Shown here in pieces: positions 14,634-32,627 of a stretch of 42,039 bases of DNA (position 1 is its first letter; the number at the start of each line of letters is the position of its first letter). Source of the DNA: Crocinitomix sp. (GTDB taxonomy: Bacteria > Bacteroidota > Bacteroidia > Flavobacteriales_D > Crocinitomicaceae); contig JALQVX010000020.1 of assembly GCA_023263555.1 (NCBI GenBank), positions 1-42,039 of the forward strand, written 5' to 3'. The translations under genes were made by a program, and so were the position numbers. Below the pieces are notes generated by a model. It was not told the DNA's origin, made no database searches, and worked only from the letters and a program-made list of their open reading frames with translations.

Positions 14634-15035
14634 ATGCATAGTATTGAAATTGGGTCTGATTTAAAGAATATAACGGAGGTTGAACTTTTGATTGACACGG
14701 TGTGTGAGGACCTTAAATTGAATGAAGATCATTATGGCAATATTCTTATTGCGGTAACGGAAGCAGTAAATAATGCAATCGTACACGGTAACGGGAATGA
14801 TCAAGAGAAGAAGGTTAAAGTAGAAGTGGAAACGGCAGCGGATAAAGTAACGTTTGTTGTTGTGGATGAAGGAACTGGTTTTGATTTTAGCAATTTGCCG
14901 GATCCAACAGCTCCAGAAAATATTGAAAAACCTGATGGTCGTGGAATTTTTCTGATGAAGAATCTTTCAGACGAAGTTGATTTTGATTTGAATGGTTCAA
15001 AAGTTAGTATTACCTTTGCTGCCGAACATGGATAA
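14634..15035 (+). CDS. RsbW-like histidine-kinase-type ATP-binding protein
   Basis: N box (LIAVTEAVNNAIVHGNG), G1 (VVDEGTGFD), G2 (DGRGIFLMKNLSDEV). Confidence 0.88.
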   Translation: MHSIEIGSDLKNITEVELLIDTVCEDLKLNEDHYGNILIAVTEAVNNAIVHGNGNDQEKKVKVEVETAADKVTFVVVDEGTGFDFSNLPDPTAPENIEKPDGRGIFLMKNLSDEVDFDLNGSKVSITFAAEHG

Positions 15036-24389: not shown

Positions 24390-24788
24390 ATGAGGATGAA
24401 AATGAGTCTATTGGTTTTAGTACTTGTATTAGTGCGGATTACCGCTTTTGCGGAGGAATTGCCAAAGACGAGTTATGGAAAATATGGGGGAGAGATGCCC
24501 GCCTATGAAGTCTATGTTGATGGGCAACCTTTGTCAATCAGTTCACATGATGTGTTCATTTCTATTTTTGCTGATAAGGTGGTTTATAGCAGTGCCCATC
24601 TTGAGTTATCAGGTGCATATACGGTCTTCAAACAAAGCAAAAATGATTACGTGGTAAAGGCCCAGTTATCCAATGGAAAATCGGTTAACTATGAGATTGA
24701 ATTTACGTGGAATAAGAAGGAAAATAAGATATATCTATCAGCTCGAAATGGACAAGCGGCCGCAGTTTTAGAGCGAATGGATAGTTAA
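24390..24788 (+). CDS. Small exported hypothetical protein
   Basis: Signal peptide MRMKMSLLVLVLVLVRITAFA. The ORF track starts at 24315, but 24390-24402 is more plausible. Confidence 0.55.
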   Translation: MRMKMSLLVLVLVLVRITAFAEELPKTSYGKYGGEMPAYEVYVDGQPLSISSHDVFISIFADKVVYSSAHLELSGAYTVFKQSKNDYVVKAQLSNGKSVNYEIEFTWNKKENKIYLSARNGQAAAVLERMDS

Positions 24789-27700
24789 TCTTTATATTCG
24801 TTGCGGGCGTAACGCTCTTCAATTTCACGTATATGTTTCTCCTTTTTAACTTGTCTTAATTTAATTGCAGATTTTGTAAAATAGGTATGTTGATTGAGGA
24901 ATTTAATTTGAATTTCATCCCACAATCGATCACTATTTAATTTGCCATGTTCTCTTAATTCGCGACGTAAATAATCAGCAATCACATGAAAATCGTCGCG
25001 ACCTAAATAGTCCAAATCAGCGTCACACATAATTTGCTCGAGATGCGTTTTAGGACTTTGAGGAATTTCAGTGGATTTGATAAGTCCGTCGATAACATCC
25101 AATTGGACTTGCGTATACCCGTATTTCGGTAATACTTCACGTGCCATACGGATGCCTATTTCTTCATTCTTATCATAACGTTCAACAAAACCAGCATCAT
25201 GATACGTGGCGGCAGATTTTAGCAAGAAAAGATCTTCATCTGTAATGCCTTCCATAATTGCTAAACGCTCTACTGCTTGCGTTACATCTATGGTGTGGTT
25301 AATGCTATGATAGAGTAATTTAGGAGATAAAGAATCCTCCAATAATTTCATGATATGGCGTTCAGCTTTCATATAGTTGATAGAACTATACAAATGCAAA
25401 TCGACAATTTTCCAAAAATTATCATTTGGTAAAATACCTTCACCGTCAATCGATAATTCAGGTTTAATGCCTTTGACATAATACATGTCGAGCATTCCTT
25501 TGTGTTTGGTCTGAATTTTTCCACGGTAAACACAATCAAAATAAGGCGCTATAAACTCATAGGTATTACCAGAGACGTTTACAGTTCCCGGTTGACCGTG
25601 CATCTCCATTCGTTGCGCTTGGTTTACTGTAGAGCCCCAAATATCGTAGGCAAAACGCTTTAATCCAATTACACCCGCAATTACCTCACCGGTATTGATT
25701 CCAATTCTAATTTTCCACGACGTTTCACCCCGTTTTTTGGCATCTTCAGTGTATTGCTGCATGAAGTTTTTAATTTCCAAGGCCGCGAGCGTTACTTCAA
25801 TCGAATTACTCTTATTTCGAATTGGTACACCACCTGCACACATATATGAATCCCCGATCGTCTTGATTTTTTCGAGGTCATATTTTTCAATGATTTCATC
25901 AAAAGCAGAGAAATAGTCATCCAATTGCTGCACAAGTTCTTGCGGTTTCATGTCCTCTGCAATTTTCGAGAAGCCCACAAAATCGGTAAACATCACCGAT
26001 ACATTTTTATAATAACGTGCTTTAGAGCGCCCTTTATTTTTGAGTTCTTCTGCCGTTCCTACCGGTAAAATATTTAAGAGGAGTTGTTCTACTTTTTCTT
26101 TCTCGCGCTCCAAAAGTTCATTCTGATGTTCAATTTTTGCTTTTTGAATTTCAACTTTTTGCTTTTGATCTTGAATCTTTTTACTTTGTTCGGTAACTTG
26201 GCGTGTACGTTTCACCACTTCAATTTCCAAGCGCACCTTTTGGCGACGGATGGTATCAATACGTCGTCGATAAAAAACAAAACCCAAAATAATGACAAGC
26301 AAGGAGCAAATCGTAATAAACCACCACGTTAACCAAAATGGAGGAGTGATCGTAATTTGAATGGTAGTGGGTTCTTTTGACCATACACCATCTGCGCTTT
26401 GGGCATATACTTGAAAGATATAGGTGCCATCACTTATGTTTACATAGTGGGCTTTGTTTTCATTGTTTGAATAATAATTAAATTCTTCTTCCAGTCCAAC
26501 AAGACGACATTTATAGCGATTTCTGGTAGGGTCAGAATAGCTCGTCGCTGCAAATTGAAATGAAAGATCGTTTTGATCATAGGTAAGTTCGAGTGACTGA
26601 GTTGTGATTATATTTTCGGCGATTATTTTTTTAGACTTACTTCCCTTTGTGGACAAGATGACTTCACTTATGATAGCACGAGGAGGATTCGGATTAATTG
26701 TTATTTCGCGTGGATCGAAAATATTGTAACCATTAATCCCACCAAAATATAAAAGTCCTTTTGACGACTTTAAAAAGGCATTTGTGTTGAATTCATTACT
26801 TTGTAATCCGTCCTTTACATTGTAATTTGTAAACCGTTCTGTTTTAGGGTTAAATTTCGATATTCCTTTATTCGTGCTGCACCAAATATAACCATCATCA
26901 TCTTCCAAGAGGCCGTAAATGACATTGTTAGATAATCCTTCTGTTTCGGTGTAATTTTTTGTTTCACGGGTAACGAGATCTAATTTTTTAATTCCTTCCC
27001 CATAGGTTCCCAACCACATATTACCCGGTTCTGTTTGTAATAAACAGGTAATGCTTCCGCTCGACTCGTCATGGTGTTCTATATCACAATATTCAAAGAT
27101 GAAATTATTGGTTGAATTTTCATAAACGGCATATAGGCCTTTATTACTTGTCACGACCCAAGTTTGATCGGTTAGATCCTTGTAAATTGTTTTAACAGCT
27201 CCTTCACCTAATCCTGAACTTGTGCTTGAGTAGTAGTTAAATTCGTGCGTGGTTCGGTCCATCAAAGACAACCCTTCTCGCGTTCCTATCCAAAGGCGAT
27301 TGCTATCAATTGGGGTAAGTGCGTAAACGCGTTCGCTCTTTCGTAAATCATCTGGTAAGCACTGAACGGGGGTAAGCGTATATTCGATATTTTTCAGATT
27401 TGTAATGTTGAGTATGAAAAGGCCATCATCATAGCCCAACCAAATCTTACTTGGGTTTTCTACATAAATACTAAGGAGGTGATGGGTTGTGTTGATATCC
27501 CGAACAATATGATAATATAATTGCGTATGGTAATTATAGATGGTTAAATCTTTCTTCGTTCCGATATAGGTATTACCTTGATTGTCTTCTGCAAATGACC
27601 AAACACTATAGTCGATTAGACCTTTAGCCGGGTCATTGTTGAGAGAAATGGTTGTAAAGCCCTGTTTAAACTTATCAAATTTAGAGACTCCTTGTTCGGT

Positions 27701-28672
27701 ACCAATCCAAAAAACACCTGTTGCATCTTCGTATATGCACGAAATATTATTATCTCCAATTGATGAATGGTCGAGTGGATTATTTTGGTAATGGGAGATG
27801 ATTTGACGTTTGTCCTTCTCGCCCTGCAAAAGAACGAGTCCTGAGCGCTCTGTGCCAATCCACACATTGTTTTCGTCCTCAACGTACACGCATTGAATAT
27901 TCCCATAACGGATGTCGGCATATTCAGTATAGACTTGCAATTTCTTCTCATCATCAACGGTAAATAAACCCTTTGTTGTGAGCACCATTAGTGGTCCGCC
28001 AGGAACTTTATAGTAATCGTTTACGGCGGCAATAGTGAAGATAGAATTATAGTCTACACTGTGAAAATCAGCATATGGATATTCGGAATAATAGGTTTGA
28101 CCCGTTGCCGTTCCAACCCATAAAATGTCCTTGTCATCAATGTAAATCGCACTAATTTCTGTATTCCCCTCTACAGCTTTGATGGACTCTATTTTTTTTG
28201 TTTTAAGATTTATTTTGTTAATCCCGTTTTTCTCTGTGAGCGCCCATAATGCACCGTCTTTATCAAAGGTTAATGAGGTAAAGATATAGCCGTTTAAATC
28301 GGGATGGGTGTTTCGGCTGATGCGGTTCATCGTATAGTTTTTTGGGTTCATCTGACCAATACCTCTATTGGTTCCAAACCACAAATATCCAGCCTCATCT
28401 TTGGCTAAGAAATGAACATAATTATTAGGTATTGAATTGGTATTGTTTGGTTTATTTTTGAAGATTTTGAAGGAATAACCATCATATCGGTTGATGCCAT
28501 CTTGCGTTGATATCCAAATATATCCGAATTTATCTTGTACAATACCGGTAACTGAACTTTGGGAAAGACCATCTTCGAGAGAATAGGTGTCGAATTTGAT
28601 CGTTTTTTGCTGACCAAACGCTCCAATTGCTAGAAGGACAAAAAGGATAATTTGGCTCAGACGCTTAACCAT
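24785..28672 (-). CDS. Two-component-propeller/Y_Y_Y sensor fused to class III adenylate cyclase and C-terminal HD domain
   Basis: Propeller repeats (FGYIWISTQDGINRYDGYSF, AGYLWFGTNRGIGQMN...), Y_Y_Y-like segment, TM (WWFITICSLLVIILGFVFY), coiled coil. Cyclase: VSVMFTDFVGFS...KIKTIGDSYM...YDIWGSTVNQAQRME. C-terminal HD: NHTIDV...YHDAGF...CDADLDYLGRDDF. Confidence 0.9.
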   Translation of the reverse strand: MVKRLSQIILFVLLAIGAFGQQKTIKFDTYSLEDGLSQSSVTGIVQDKFGYIWISTQDGINRYDGYSFKIFKNKPNNTNSIPNNYVHFLAKDEAGYLWFGTNRGIGQMNPKNYTMNRISRNTHPDLNGYIFTSLTFDKDGALWALTEKNGINKINLKTKKIESIKAVEGNTEISAIYIDDKDILWVGTATGQTYYSEYPYADFHSVDYNSIFTIAAVNDYYKVPGGPLMVLTTKGLFTVDDEKKLQVYTEYADIRYGNIQCVYVEDENNVWIGTERSGLVLLQGEKDKRQIISHYQNNPLDHSSIGDNNISCIYEDATGVFWIGTEQGVSKFDKFKQGFTTISLNNDPAKGLIDYSVWSFAEDNQGNTYIGTKKDLTIYNYHTQLYYHIVRDINTTHHLLSIYVENPSKIWLGYDDGLFILNITNLKNIEYTLTPVQCLPDDLRKSERVYALTPIDSNRLWIGTREGLSLMDRTTHEFNYYSSTSSGLGEGAVKTIYKDLTDQTWVVTSNKGLYAVYENSTNNFIFEYCDIEHHDESSGSITCLLQTEPGNMWLGTYGEGIKKLDLVTRETKNYTETEGLSNNVIYGLLEDDDGYIWCSTNKGISKFNPKTERFTNYNVKDGLQSNEFNTNAFLKSSKGLLYFGGINGYNIFDPREITINPNPPRAIISEVILSTKGSKSKKIIAENIITTQSLELTYDQNDLSFQFAATSYSDPTRNRYKCRLVGLEEEFNYYSNNENKAHYVNISDGTYIFQVYAQSADGVWSKEPTTIQITITPPFWLTWWFITICSLLVIILGFVFYRRRIDTIRRQKVRLEIEVVKRTRQVTEQSKKIQDQKQKVEIQKAKIEHQNELLEREKEKVEQLLLNILPVGTAEELKNKGRSKARYYKNVSVMFTDFVGFSKIAEDMKPQELVQQLDDYFSAFDEIIEKYDLEKIKTIGDSYMCAGGVPIRNKSNSIEVTLAALEIKNFMQQYTEDAKKRGETSWKIRIGINTGEVIAGVIGLKRFAYDIWGSTVNQAQRMEMHGQPGTVNVSGNTYEFIAPYFDCVYRGKIQTKHKGMLDMYYVKGIKPELSIDGEGILPNDNFWKIVDLHLYSSINYMKAERHIMKLLEDSLSPKLLYHSINHTIDVTQAVERLAIMEGITDEDLFLLKSAATYHDAGFVERYDKNEEIGIRMAREVLPKYGYTQVQLDVIDGLIKSTEIPQSPKTHLEQIMCDADLDYLGRDDFHVIADYLRRELREHGKLNSDRLWDEIQIKFLNQHTYFTKSAIKLRQVKKEKHIREIEERYARNEYKD

Positions 28673-28676
28673 AAGC

Positions 28677-30506
28677 TTATATTCTTACTCCAATTACTAA
28701 TATATCATCAACTTGTTCAAAAGAACCTTGCCATGTTCGCATTGTTTTTTCTAAATATTTTTGTTGTTCAGGCATTGACTTTTGGTGAACGGAAAGTAAG
28801 TGTTCTCTAAATCGATTGTATAAAAACTTTTTACCACGTTCTCCACCAAATTGGTCTGCATAGCCGTCACTGAATAAATAGATCACATCATTCTTTTGCA
28901 GTTTAACAGTGTGTTGTGTGTATTTTTTAGACCCTGGTTCAAAGGATCCAATCGCAAATTTATCTGCTTTAATAATGATGAATTCATTATCGCGGATAAC
29001 GTAAAGTGGATTGTTAGCGCCCGCATACTTCAGCTCTAGTGTCTCATAGTCAATCGAACAAATCGCAATGTCCATTCCATCCCGAATTTGATTTTCTTCG
29101 TGGCTTTTATTTAAGGAAAGACTAACGAATGTATTGAGATGATCTAAAATTTCAGCCGGTTGATTTTTATTGTGTTCGCGAGTTGAAGTGTTCAAGCCGT
29201 TGGCACCAACCAAACTCATAAATGCACCTGGTACACCATGTCCTGTGCAATCAACAGCCGCGAAAAAATTAAGGTTCTGCGACTTTTCAAACCAATAAAA
29301 ATCACCAGATACAATGTCTTTGGGTTTATAAAGCACAAATGAATCTGGGCATATGGTTTGAATGACTTCTTTTGGCGGTAGAATTGAATTTTGAAGTCGT
29401 TTTGCGTAACGAATACTTGCAGTGACAGCTTTGTAAAGATCTTCAAGTTTTAAGCGTTGACGTTCGTTTTCATCTCGTTGAAGAACTATCTCTTCCGTTC
29501 GTTCTTTCACTTTTTGTTCTAGAATACGTTCCGTTTCGGCTAATTCATCACGCATTTTAAGAAGGGCGTGTCCTAAGACATCTTCTTCGCTTAATGGTTT
29601 GTAGGGTGAATTGAAATTACTTTGTCCTACTTCTTTTGCGAAGTGGGTTGTCTTTTTCATCCCATCAACAAGGTCAACTACAGCTGCAGACATGTCTCCA
29701 ACTTCGTCGTTTCTTATTTCTATTTCTTCTTTAGGGAAAATCCCTTTTCCAAGTGAAAGTAGGACTTCACGCAAATTATTAACTGGTTTTACAATCGTGT
29801 TCGTTGTAAATACAGCGATAAATATGGCAAAAATAATCAGGGATCCTCCTAGCCACCAATACAATTGTAACGATTGAAATTTTGCGCGCGATTGTTCTGA
29901 TGATGTCCGATTGATTGATAAAGCATTTCCTTCTTTTCTAATCAAACTAATTTTAAGAAAATCTAGATTTCTATTAATACTATTGACGTTTTCACTGATC
30001 GTTCCATTTTGATCGACTAAGATCCGTGCAGAAAACAATGAAAATGGATCATCATAGCTGCTGATGTTTGGAAGTAGGTCCATTATTTGATGATAGTCGG
30101 TAAAAACCAATTCGTACTGCGATTTAATGGCATTGAAGATTTCAACATCTTCTTGATCACTCCATTTCTTGCTTATCTCCTCCAACTGTTGAAGTTTGTT
30201 TGGAATGGCCTCGTTAATGATGTCTTTAAAGCGCATTTTATGCTCCACATCATTTCTACTTTGATCACTTAACCATTGCGACGCCAACTGACGAGATTCT
30301 ACGGTCAGTGATTTTAAGGCAACAACGTATTCTTTTGATGGCGTTAATATATTGATGAGCTGGTTAGAAGTTTTGTCAAGCTCTTTGAATGTTTTGATTC
30401 CGTCATAAACAGCCCAAAATGTTCCACCAAAAACGATTATAATGAATAAAATCAGGACACCAAAACCGGTACCAATTTTCTTCCCTATGGTGAATCTAAA
30501 GCTCAT
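28677..30506 (-). CDS. HAMP-domain membrane SpoIIE/PP2C-type serine phosphatase
   Basis: Two TM helices flanking a helical sensor, HAMP region, coiled coil, SGDFYWFE...AAVDCTGHGVPGAFMSLVG...LFSDGYADQFGG...EQVDDILVIGVRI. Confidence 0.9.
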   Translation of the reverse strand: MSFRFTIGKKIGTGFGVLILFIIIVFGGTFWAVYDGIKTFKELDKTSNQLINILTPSKEYVVALKSLTVESRQLASQWLSDQSRNDVEHKMRFKDIINEAIPNKLQQLEEISKKWSDQEDVEIFNAIKSQYELVFTDYHQIMDLLPNISSYDDPFSLFSARILVDQNGTISENVNSINRNLDFLKISLIRKEGNALSINRTSSEQSRAKFQSLQLYWWLGGSLIIFAIFIAVFTTNTIVKPVNNLREVLLSLGKGIFPKEEIEIRNDEVGDMSAAVVDLVDGMKKTTHFAKEVGQSNFNSPYKPLSEEDVLGHALLKMRDELAETERILEQKVKERTEEIVLQRDENERQRLKLEDLYKAVTASIRYAKRLQNSILPPKEVIQTICPDSFVLYKPKDIVSGDFYWFEKSQNLNFFAAVDCTGHGVPGAFMSLVGANGLNTSTREHNKNQPAEILDHLNTFVSLSLNKSHEENQIRDGMDIAICSIDYETLELKYAGANNPLYVIRDNEFIIIKADKFAIGSFEPGSKKYTQHTVKLQKNDVIYLFSDGYADQFGGERGKKFLYNRFREHLLSVHQKSMPEQQKYLEKTMRTWQGSFEQVDDILVIGVRI

Positions 30507-30527
30507 ATTCTTGTTGCTTTATTCGAG

Positions 30528-31535
30528 TTATTCGTCTTGTAAACGGTGTAACTCGTTTTTATACTTTTCGGCTTCTGCGCTATCAGGCAAAGTCACGGTG
30601 TAAATACGGATCAATATTTTCAGGTTTTCCTGATCTGTCGGGTCCTTTTTATACGTGTCTAAATAACTTGAAATGTAGTATAAATCGACAACTGTCTGAT
30701 AAATCAAGTATTCTGTTTCATTATTAAGGCCGTAGTAACAGCCCATGAGTGCTATTTTTACATTGATATCGTCAGCGTTAAGTCGTTCACATGTTTTTAA
30801 GAACGGTATCGCTTTTAAAAAGGCTTCTTCTGCTCTTTTTTGATTCATAATCAATTGCTCAATTGTAATTTCAGGATCAACACTTGTTATATAATCAACT
30901 GCAATACTGTAGTAAACTATTCCGATATTATAATTTGCTTGATAGTGTAGGCTATCAATCGCAATCGTTTTTAAACAATAGAAGATGGATTTCTCTCTAA
31001 GTTCTGCTTTTTTGCTCAGTTCAAAATCTTCTGCTTTATTGAGATATTCAACGCCCATTGCATTGTAAAACTCTGTATCTTTTTGATCAAAATTGTAAGC
31101 TGGATCAACCAAAGTGGAATAATGTTTTTTATATGTGTTGTAAGACTGTTCTGCTTTGTCAAATTCTATTTCTTCTGTCAAAAGTGTGACAGCATCATTA
31201 TAATAAAGCAGCACGGTACGTTTTAGATACTCATTAATTTTTGCAGTATAAATACCTGTGCTATCCAGTTTTTTCGCATGAACAAAGGATTCCATAGCAA
31301 TACCTCTGTAATAGAGTTGATCATCATCAGCAATGCTGCGATAAATTAAACCTCTTAATTGCCATGTTTGAGAATCAAAACGTTCTGAACTACTGACAGC
31401 AGAGTCAATGGCTACTTTAGCTTCTTCAAACTTTTGATTTTTATAAAGTTCATAAGCCGTACCTGTCCATTGACTGTAAGCTTGGTTAAAGCTTAAGCCA
31501 ATCACAATTAGCGATATGTATTTTATAAATCTCAT
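30528..31535 (-). CDS. Exported TPR-like protein
   Basis: Signal peptide MRFIKYISLIVIGLSFNQAYS; helical repeats such as AYELYKNQKFEEAKVAIDSAV. Confidence 0.75.
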   Translation of the reverse strand: MRFIKYISLIVIGLSFNQAYSQWTGTAYELYKNQKFEEAKVAIDSAVSSSERFDSQTWQLRGLIYRSIADDDQLYYRGIAMESFVHAKKLDSTGIYTAKINEYLKRTVLLYYNDAVTLLTEEIEFDKAEQSYNTYKKHYSTLVDPAYNFDQKDTEFYNAMGVEYLNKAEDFELSKKAELREKSIFYCLKTIAIDSLHYQANYNIGIVYYSIAVDYITSVDPEITIEQLIMNQKRAEEAFLKAIPFLKTCERLNADDINVKIALMGCYYGLNNETEYLIYQTVVDLYYISSYLDTYKKDPTDQENLKILIRIYTVTLPDSAEAEKYKNELHRLQDE

Positions 31536-32071
31536 TTTGTAACTTTCGCTGCAAGGTCAGCTAATTTGTCTGCGATAACTAATCTATGGTTTTTTGCGTT
31601 CGTTTTATTGATCTCGTATTTCTGTTGGTTGCCTTCTACAATAAAATTAATAATGGCTCCTTTCGCTAATGCTCCGTTTCGTTCTCCTACTAAAAGTGTA
31701 TTTTCTGTTAATAATGATCCTGACAAACTTGAAAGTTCATTCGTTCTTTCTTCTGTCACATAAAGTATATGGCAACCTTTAACTTCATCTTTATTTCTAT
31801 AATTCTTAACCACAATTTTTTGACTTCCAATGGATTTCCCAGAGTATTTTTTTATTAGTTCGTCATAAACGGCCGTTTTTTCACCATAAACACCAATGAC
31901 AAAATCACCTGTTCTTCGTTCAGCTGGCCATTCTACCAGCGTTGCAAAGGTATAGATGTACATTGCCTTAACGACAGAGCGCGTGTCAGTTATTTGATTA
32001 GAACGTGACGTAACACTGCTCAACCCTATCAAAAGGGTTAGTATCAGGGATATGTACGTTAATCTTTTCAA
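31532..32071 (-). CDS. YfiR/DUF4154-family exported protein
   Basis: VVKAMYIYTFATLVEWPAE...FVIGVYGE...GCHILYVTEE...TLLVGERNGALAKGAIINFIVEGNQQKYEINKTNA: typical YfiR/DUF4154 pattern, with signal peptide. Confidence 0.82.
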   Translation of the reverse strand: MKRLTYISLILTLLIGLSSVTSRSNQITDTRSVVKAMYIYTFATLVEWPAERRTGDFVIGVYGEKTAVYDELIKKYSGKSIGSQKIVVKNYRNKDEVKGCHILYVTEERTNELSSLSGSLLTENTLLVGERNGALAKGAIINFIVEGNQQKYEINKTNAKNHRLVIADKLADLAAKVTK

Positions 32072-32114
32072 AAAGTTCTATTTTGATATTTCGGTTAAGC
32101 TAAAAGCGTGCCAA

Positions 32115-32627
32115 TTATACGTTTGGTGCTCCAGGTTTAACATTTTGTATTGTTTCCAAATCGCGATCAAAAAGATATAATCCCGCTTTGTCATTACCGA
32201 TCATTTTTAATTTATCCAATATGTTGCGTGCTAGTGCCTCTTCTTCCAGTTGCTCGGCAACAAACCATTGCATAAAATTGTGTGTCGAATAATCTTTCTC
32301 TTCTAAACAAATATAAACCACTTCATTAATCATATTTGTAACCATTATTTCGTGCTCTAGCAATAACGTAAAAATATGTGTTAATGATTCAAATTCTTTT
32401 TGAGGAATGTCAATAGAAGGTATATCCGCTTTTCCACCACGCTCGTTAACGAACCGAACTAACTTAAGCATATGCGTTCGCTCTTCGTCTGAATGTTGAT
32501 ATAAAAAATTTGCTGTTCCATTAATACCCGCGTTCTCAGCCCATGAAGCCATGGCTAAATAGAGTTGAGATGATGTTGCTTCGGCCTTAATTTGTTTGTT
32601 TAATATGTTTTCGATTCGTGTATTCAA
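32115..32627 (-). CDS. Ferritin
   Basis: LNKQIKAEATSSQLYLAMASWAENAGINGTANFLYQHSDEERTHMLKLVRFVNERGG...NFMQWFVAEQLEEEALARNILDKL. Confidence 0.95.
   Translation of the reverse strand: MNTRIENILNKQIKAEATSSQLYLAMASWAENAGINGTANFLYQHSDEERTHMLKLVRFVNERGGKADIPSIDIPQKEFESLTHIFTLLLEHEIMVTNMINEVVYICLEEKDYSTHNFMQWFVAEQLEEEALARNILDKLKMIGNDKAGLYLFDRDLETIQNVKPGAPNV

Follow-up and report, generated by a model that had tools for sequence, protein, structure and literature searches.

A 42,039-nucleotide stretch of the genome of Crocinitomix sp. (contig JALQVX010000020.1; hereafter the window, meaning the whole stretch that was analysed) carries an operon representing a conserved, apparently undescribed signalling module built from known parts: an exported YfiR-like protein, an exported tetratricopeptide repeat (TPR) protein and a membrane-bound SpoIIE-type phosphatase resembling SiaA of Pseudomonas aeruginosa, joined in the window by an adenylate cyclase. 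The operon probably relays cell-envelope information into the cell. The three genes for the YfiR-like protein, the TPR protein and the phosphatase stand in tandem at 100 of about 115 gene neighbourhoods examined in the order to which the organism belongs, and in some genomes the YfiR and phosphatase domains are fused in a single protein.

Composition and conservation of the operon

A preliminary description of the window had proposed a signalling unit of four tightly packed genes, and the coordinates and junctions of the open reading frames agree with it. All four lie on the minus strand, with a 4-nt gap between cyclase and phosphatase, a 21-nt gap between phosphatase and TPR gene, and a 4-nt overlap of the TPR and YfiR genes:

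31532..32071, minus strand: exported YfiR-like protein (DUF4154), 179 aa, TTG start (Pfam PF13689)
30528..31535, minus strand: exported TPR protein, 335 aa; TPR-like helical repeats following a signal peptide (predicted structure)
28677..30506, minus strand: membrane phosphatase, 609 aa; transmembrane (TM) helix, periplasmic helical bundle, TM helix, HAMP, coiled coil, SpoIIE/PPM domain; SiaA-like (Pfam, PDB, model)
24785..28672, minus strand: accessory fourth gene, 1295 aa; signal peptide, Reg_prop propeller, Y_Y_Y, TM helix, coiled-coil stalk, class III adenylate cyclase, HD

Pfam matches bear out the YfiR/DUF4154, SpoIIE and propeller-cyclase-HD assignments proposed earlier. The YfiR-like protein, whose TTG start is kept in nine family members, matches PF13689 (DUF4154) with 111 bits (cut-off 24.9) and the narrower YfiR equivalog model with 19 bits (cut-off 85); a PDB search returned no match for it. 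The phosphatase matches PF07228 (SpoIIE) with 78 bits, HAMP remaining below threshold (19 bits, cut-off 25), and its predicted structure shows two long helices flanking a periplasmic helical bundle, followed by HAMP, a coiled coil and a PPM fold. The fourth protein matches PF00211 (cyclase, 170 bits), PF07494 (Reg_prop, 139), PF07495 (Y_Y_Y, 42) and PF01966 (HD, 25); 4a2l and 3v9f are the best PDB matches of its periplasmic part, and its C-terminal HD region found only weak, unrelated matches in the PDB. The combination of a periplasmic propeller with Y_Y_Y recalls the Reg_prop-Y_Y_Y hybrid sensor kinases of Bacteroidota, the output, however, being adenylate cyclase and HD rather than histidine kinase and response regulator. 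No Pfam family matches the TPR protein. Its AlphaFold2 model (pLDDT 89.8) nevertheless shows a helical repeat with consensus TPR proteins as top structural matches; misannotation of this gene was accordingly rejected, the predicted fold agreeing with TPR structures.

The metal-binding motifs of the phosphatase had been described as intact, and across 69 phosphatases and 28 cyclases the metal, nucleotide or substrate, and HD residues are indeed invariant, save one undetermined residue. Class III cyclases use two metal-binding aspartates, an adenine-specifying Lys/Asp pair and a transition-state Asn/Arg pair. The window cyclase has all of these, as D897, D941, K937, D1010, N1017 and R1021, and they are kept in the 28 relatives (K937 being undetermined in one); K937 and D1010 indicate that ATP is the predicted substrate.

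Conservation was assessed in 199 genomes of the order, 105 of which carry the operon. DUF4154 was matched in 125 genomes and the TPR protein in 117 (E ≤ 0.001, many of these matches weak and outside the operon). In addition to the 100 tandem loci, four neighbourhoods hold TPR and SpoIIE genes without a recognised YfiR. Median gaps are −4 nt for YfiR-TPR (73 pairs), 9 nt for TPR-SpoIIE (69) and 6 nt for SpoIIE-cyclase (26); with such near-zero gaps and 100 tandem loci, both a chance gene order and one unique to this strain can be dismissed.

The fourth gene behaves differently. At the 100 loci, SpoIIE is followed by propeller-adenylate cyclase-HD in 18 cases, by adenylate cyclase-HD without propeller in seven and by HD alone in two; the remaining 73 have no cyclase after SpoIIE, seven of them ending at a contig edge. 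Since about two thirds of loci lack an adjacent cyclase, the conserved core is three genes, YfiR-TPR-SpoIIE, and the cyclase is accessory, HD being the most persistent piece of the accessory gene. Thus, of the four-gene unit in the preliminary description, the first three genes stand as a conserved group, but the fourth belongs to a minority of loci.

The module seems to be restricted to this order-level group, because a TPR profile search of 396 genomes across the phylum gave operon-type matches (>280 bits) in only two, both from the order of the window; the other matches were mostly to another TPR family, with frames of about 400-500 aa and less than 90 bits.

Some related arrangements were seen. 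In one genus, SpoIIE and cyclase are separated by two or three genes for membrane proteins (L072:7806-10149; L082:6419-9431), with first frames of 185-187 aa and then frames of about 557-560 aa. The cyclase-HD fusion recurs: L298:6865-8580 is a second protein of this kind in its genome, the N-terminal part of which resembles a response-regulator receiver. The propeller sensor is also used with phosphatase output, in propeller-SpoIIE fusions of about 1050-1100 aa (L157, L163, L175, L178, L204).

Probable input and candidate partners of the phosphatase

The best evidence for YfiR as an input to the phosphatase comes from fusions: single proteins that join DUF4154 to TM-SpoIIE are encoded at L134 and L138 and in another five genomes (L312-L316). 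At other loci of the order, histidine kinases have DUF4154 either within the same protein (L132, L133) or, for CHASE8-HAMP kinases, in a neighbouring gene (L120, L121); alongside these fusions to SpoIIE and histidine kinases, no DUF4154-cyclase fusion was seen. These arrangements lend support to YfiR being a module through which membrane effectors receive periplasmic input, and such an input is apparently common to several output enzymes. When the SpoIIE catalytic domain was controlled for, the distances of the SpoIIE periplasmic domain gave partial correlations of 0.47 with those of YfiR and 0.42 with those of TPR, compared to 0.20 for a ferritin control that likewise lay above all permutations. 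As saturation can correlate fast-evolving sequences, this covarying divergence is supportive, not decisive. Taken with the conserved gene order, it is likely that YfiR and TPR control the phosphatase.

As in YfiBNR of P. aeruginosa, an exported DUF4154/YfiR protein adjoins a HAMP membrane effector (PMC4655355). In contrast to YfiBNR, a phosphatase takes the place of the diguanylate cyclase YfiN as effector, and a TPR protein that of YfiB; the Pfam search found no GGDEF or CHASE8 match in the operon proteins, and no YfiB OmpA-like lipoprotein was matched among them or among the window neighbours scanned. The two conserved cysteine pairs of YfiR are also absent from nearly all members of the operon's YfiR family.

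On the output side, the nearest solved relative of the phosphatase, in sequence as in fold, is SiaA: its catalytic domain has SiaA (6k4e) as best PDB match, with 207 bits against 23 bits for the next, SpoIIE. The SiaA equivalog model gives 228 bits (cut-off 700), with the best stretch at residues 283-609, and most sampled Bacteroidota SpoIIE proteins score alike. In P. aeruginosa, SiaABCD comprises the phosphatase SiaA, the kinase SiaB, the phosphoprotein SiaC and the diguanylate cyclase SiaD; whether SiaC is phosphorylated at T68 depends on SiaA and SiaB, and it is the unphosphorylated form that activates SiaD (PMC7647112, PMC8457831). The window's genome, a 3.1-Mb draft that is 85% complete, contains a SiaB-SiaC gene pair (SiaB_fam_kinase 169 bits, cut-off 85; SiaC PF09345 154 bits), and the paired SiaC keeps the phosphosite context, LEYFNTSSSK compared to LLYLNTSSIK around T68 of P. 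aeruginosa, with NTSS aligned with T68 (PMC7647112). One SiaC paralog (L113:3455-3856) has isoleucine in place of the phosphorylatable threonine (YFNIASSK) and may be insensitive to the kinase. In the window's genome, the SiaC matches and the listed SiaB matches are on contigs other than that of the window, and the operon itself has none; in other genomes, SiaB and/or SiaC genes adjoin SpoIIE genes (L070, L089, L170, L171, L184). SiaB is present in all 105 operon genomes compared to 67 of the 94 others, a correlation uncorrected for phylogeny, which weakens to p = 0.0016 when one genus is left out.

Features that recall SiaABCD are a HAMP-PPM membrane phosphatase whose catalytic domain shows the SiaA likeness of most sampled SpoIIE proteins, a gene for a nucleotide cyclase next to it, and a genome that encodes proteins of SiaB and SiaC type, the latter with a conserved phosphosite context (PMC7647112, PMC8457831). 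It differs in that the sensor part of the phosphatase, a predicted helical bundle, is unmatched by the SiaA model (which covers residues 283-609 only), in that YfiR and TPR genes belong to the operon and SiaB and SiaC are unlinked to it, and in that the optional cyclase is a class III adenylate cyclase (PF00211, no GGDEF match) rather than a diguanylate cyclase. The SiaA relationship and the SiaB/SiaC-type partners in the genome, neither of which featured in the preliminary description, provide a definite candidate for the substrate of the phosphatase; that this is SiaC we rate as an even chance.

The upstream region

Beyond the preliminary description, which mentioned neither these features nor the optional status of the cyclase, two elements were found upstream of the YfiR gene:

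32115..32627, minus strand: ferritin gene, conserved upstream of the YfiR gene
32099..32114, minus strand: sigma54-like −24/−12 element TTGGCACGCTTTTAGC, located after the ferritin stop and before the TTG start of YfiR

The ferritin gene ends 43 nt upstream of the YfiR gene, and in 72 of the 100 loci the four genes preceding the module include ferritin; iron storage may be linked in some way to the signalling module.

The sigma54-like element occurs in all nine operon-carrying family members examined, 41-47 nt before the YfiR start. It was found in 21 of 87 YfiR upstream regions compared to 11 of 948 other genes, a count that is partly circular because the pattern was drawn after viewing some of the sequences, and its fixed position within one family is the stronger point. 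The published sigma54 consensus is TGGCAC-N5-7-TTGCT (PMC12316311); in many members G[AG]GT replaces GC at −12, so that the match is to a variant of it. RpoN is encoded in the window's genome, where only this site matches the family pattern exactly. Judged from the sequence, the element is a candidate sigma54-like promoter before the first operon gene. A sigma54 regulon shared with the SiaB-SiaC pair was considered and is not supported, no such element lying upstream of SiaB.

Sites found in a sigma70-type promoter scan were no more frequent than in shuffled sequences, and a terminator scan revealed no terminator-like site in the ferritin-YfiR gap; transcription may also read through from the ferritin gene into the operon. 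Separate promoters for each gene are disfavoured by the near-zero gaps and by the fact that the one conserved promoter-like element precedes the first gene.

Proposed mechanism, alternatives and significance

The best explanation of these observations, and one that we favour somewhat, is an envelope-gated switch centred on a SiaA-like phosphatase with an optional cyclic AMP (cAMP) output. The exported YfiR-like and TPR proteins would respond to some condition in the periplasm or outer membrane by acting on the helical periplasmic domain of the phosphatase; the signal would pass through the second TM helix, HAMP and the coiled coil and change the activity of the cytoplasmic PPM domain, which would then dephosphorylate a small SiaC-type phosphoprotein, itself phosphorylated by a SiaB-type kinase whose gene lies elsewhere. 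The operon of some families also has a propeller-gated adenylate cyclase with HD, which would be a co-expressed cAMP output, perhaps under the same switch, although it seems rather doubtful that the cyclase is a target of this switch. The earlier proposal that YfiR/TPR input controls both outputs is partly supported: the DUF4154-SpoIIE fusions strengthen the case for YfiR acting on the phosphatase from the periplasm, but the four genes are not conserved together as a unit. Envelope stress, also suggested there, is a candidate signal.

Several observations weigh against this explanation in addition to the neglect of phylogeny in the SiaB comparison. SiaA likeness is common to most sampled SpoIIE phosphatases of the phylum, and four other SpoIIE proteins in the window's genome score slightly or clearly above the window phosphatase against SiaA. 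Because this genome holds 12 SpoIIE, four SiaB and four SiaC matches, the pairing of the window phosphatase with any one SiaC is unproven. Most loci have no cyclase beside the module, and two stand-alone STAS frames and an RsbW-like kinase in the genome provide alternative partners.

With the same envelope input, the phosphatase could instead serve a STAS/RsbW partner switch, dephosphorylating a stand-alone anti-anti-sigma-type STAS protein phosphorylated by the RsbW-like kinase. STAS proteins are substrates of the SpoIIE and RsbU phosphatases, and besides the two STAS frames the window itself contains a stand-alone RsbW/SpoIIAB-like ATPase gene at 14634-15035 (HATPase_c_2, 93 bits), followed by ybeY and mnmG, that may encode a partner-switch kinase. 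However, the closest solved catalytic domain is that of SiaA, far ahead of SpoIIE, SiaB is present in every operon genome, and the genes seen beside SpoIIE of this type are SiaB/SiaC, not STAS, all of which makes such a switch unlikely here. It is quite unlikely, too, that SiaC, once dephosphorylated by the YfiR/TPR-gated phosphatase, attaches to the coiled-coil stalk of the neighbouring adenylate cyclase and switches on cAMP synthesis, in the way that SiaC binds the SiaD stalk (PMC8457831). The adjacency of the phosphatase and cyclase genes, as for SiaA and SiaD in one operon, the stalk preceding the cyclase catalytic domain and a SiaC with phosphosite in the genome are all consistent with this, but the cyclase stalks do not conserve the S-x3-Q pattern through which SiaD makes contact, which was rejected as support for SiaC binding; stalk length varies, and most loci have no cyclase.

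Finally, YfiR might regulate the cyclase rather than the phosphatase from the periplasm, as Pseudomonas YfiR represses its membrane cyclase YfiN (PMC4655355). The large periplasmic propeller of the cyclase would suit such a role; yet YfiR-TPR-SpoIIE lacks an adjacent cyclase in most loci, and the fusions of DUF4154 are to SpoIIE or histidine kinase and not to a cyclase, so that we consider this highly improbable.

The preliminary description did not recognise the operon as a described system, and we likewise found no published account of this combination: a literature search, which left subscription papers mostly outside its scope and is no proof of novelty, returned no paper with YfiR and SpoIIE together, and a single one in which DUF1987 is named. 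To our knowledge, DUF4154 proteins in Bacteroidota have no assigned partner, and none was found in the same search. YfiR and SiaABC are known from pseudomonads, both feeding diguanylate cyclases; here, YfiR-type input is coupled to a SiaA-like phosphatase, by gene order in over 100 genomes and by outright fusion in some. If SiaC were to act on the cyclase, a SiaC-type partner switch would drive cAMP rather than cyclic di-GMP (c-di-GMP) synthesis, joined to a YfiR-type periplasmic input. If the envelope-gated switch is correct, Bacteroidota would possess a pathway leading from the envelope to Ser/Thr dephosphorylation, extended to cAMP in some lineages, and DUF4154 proteins would gain a specific, testable partner outside c-di-GMP signalling.

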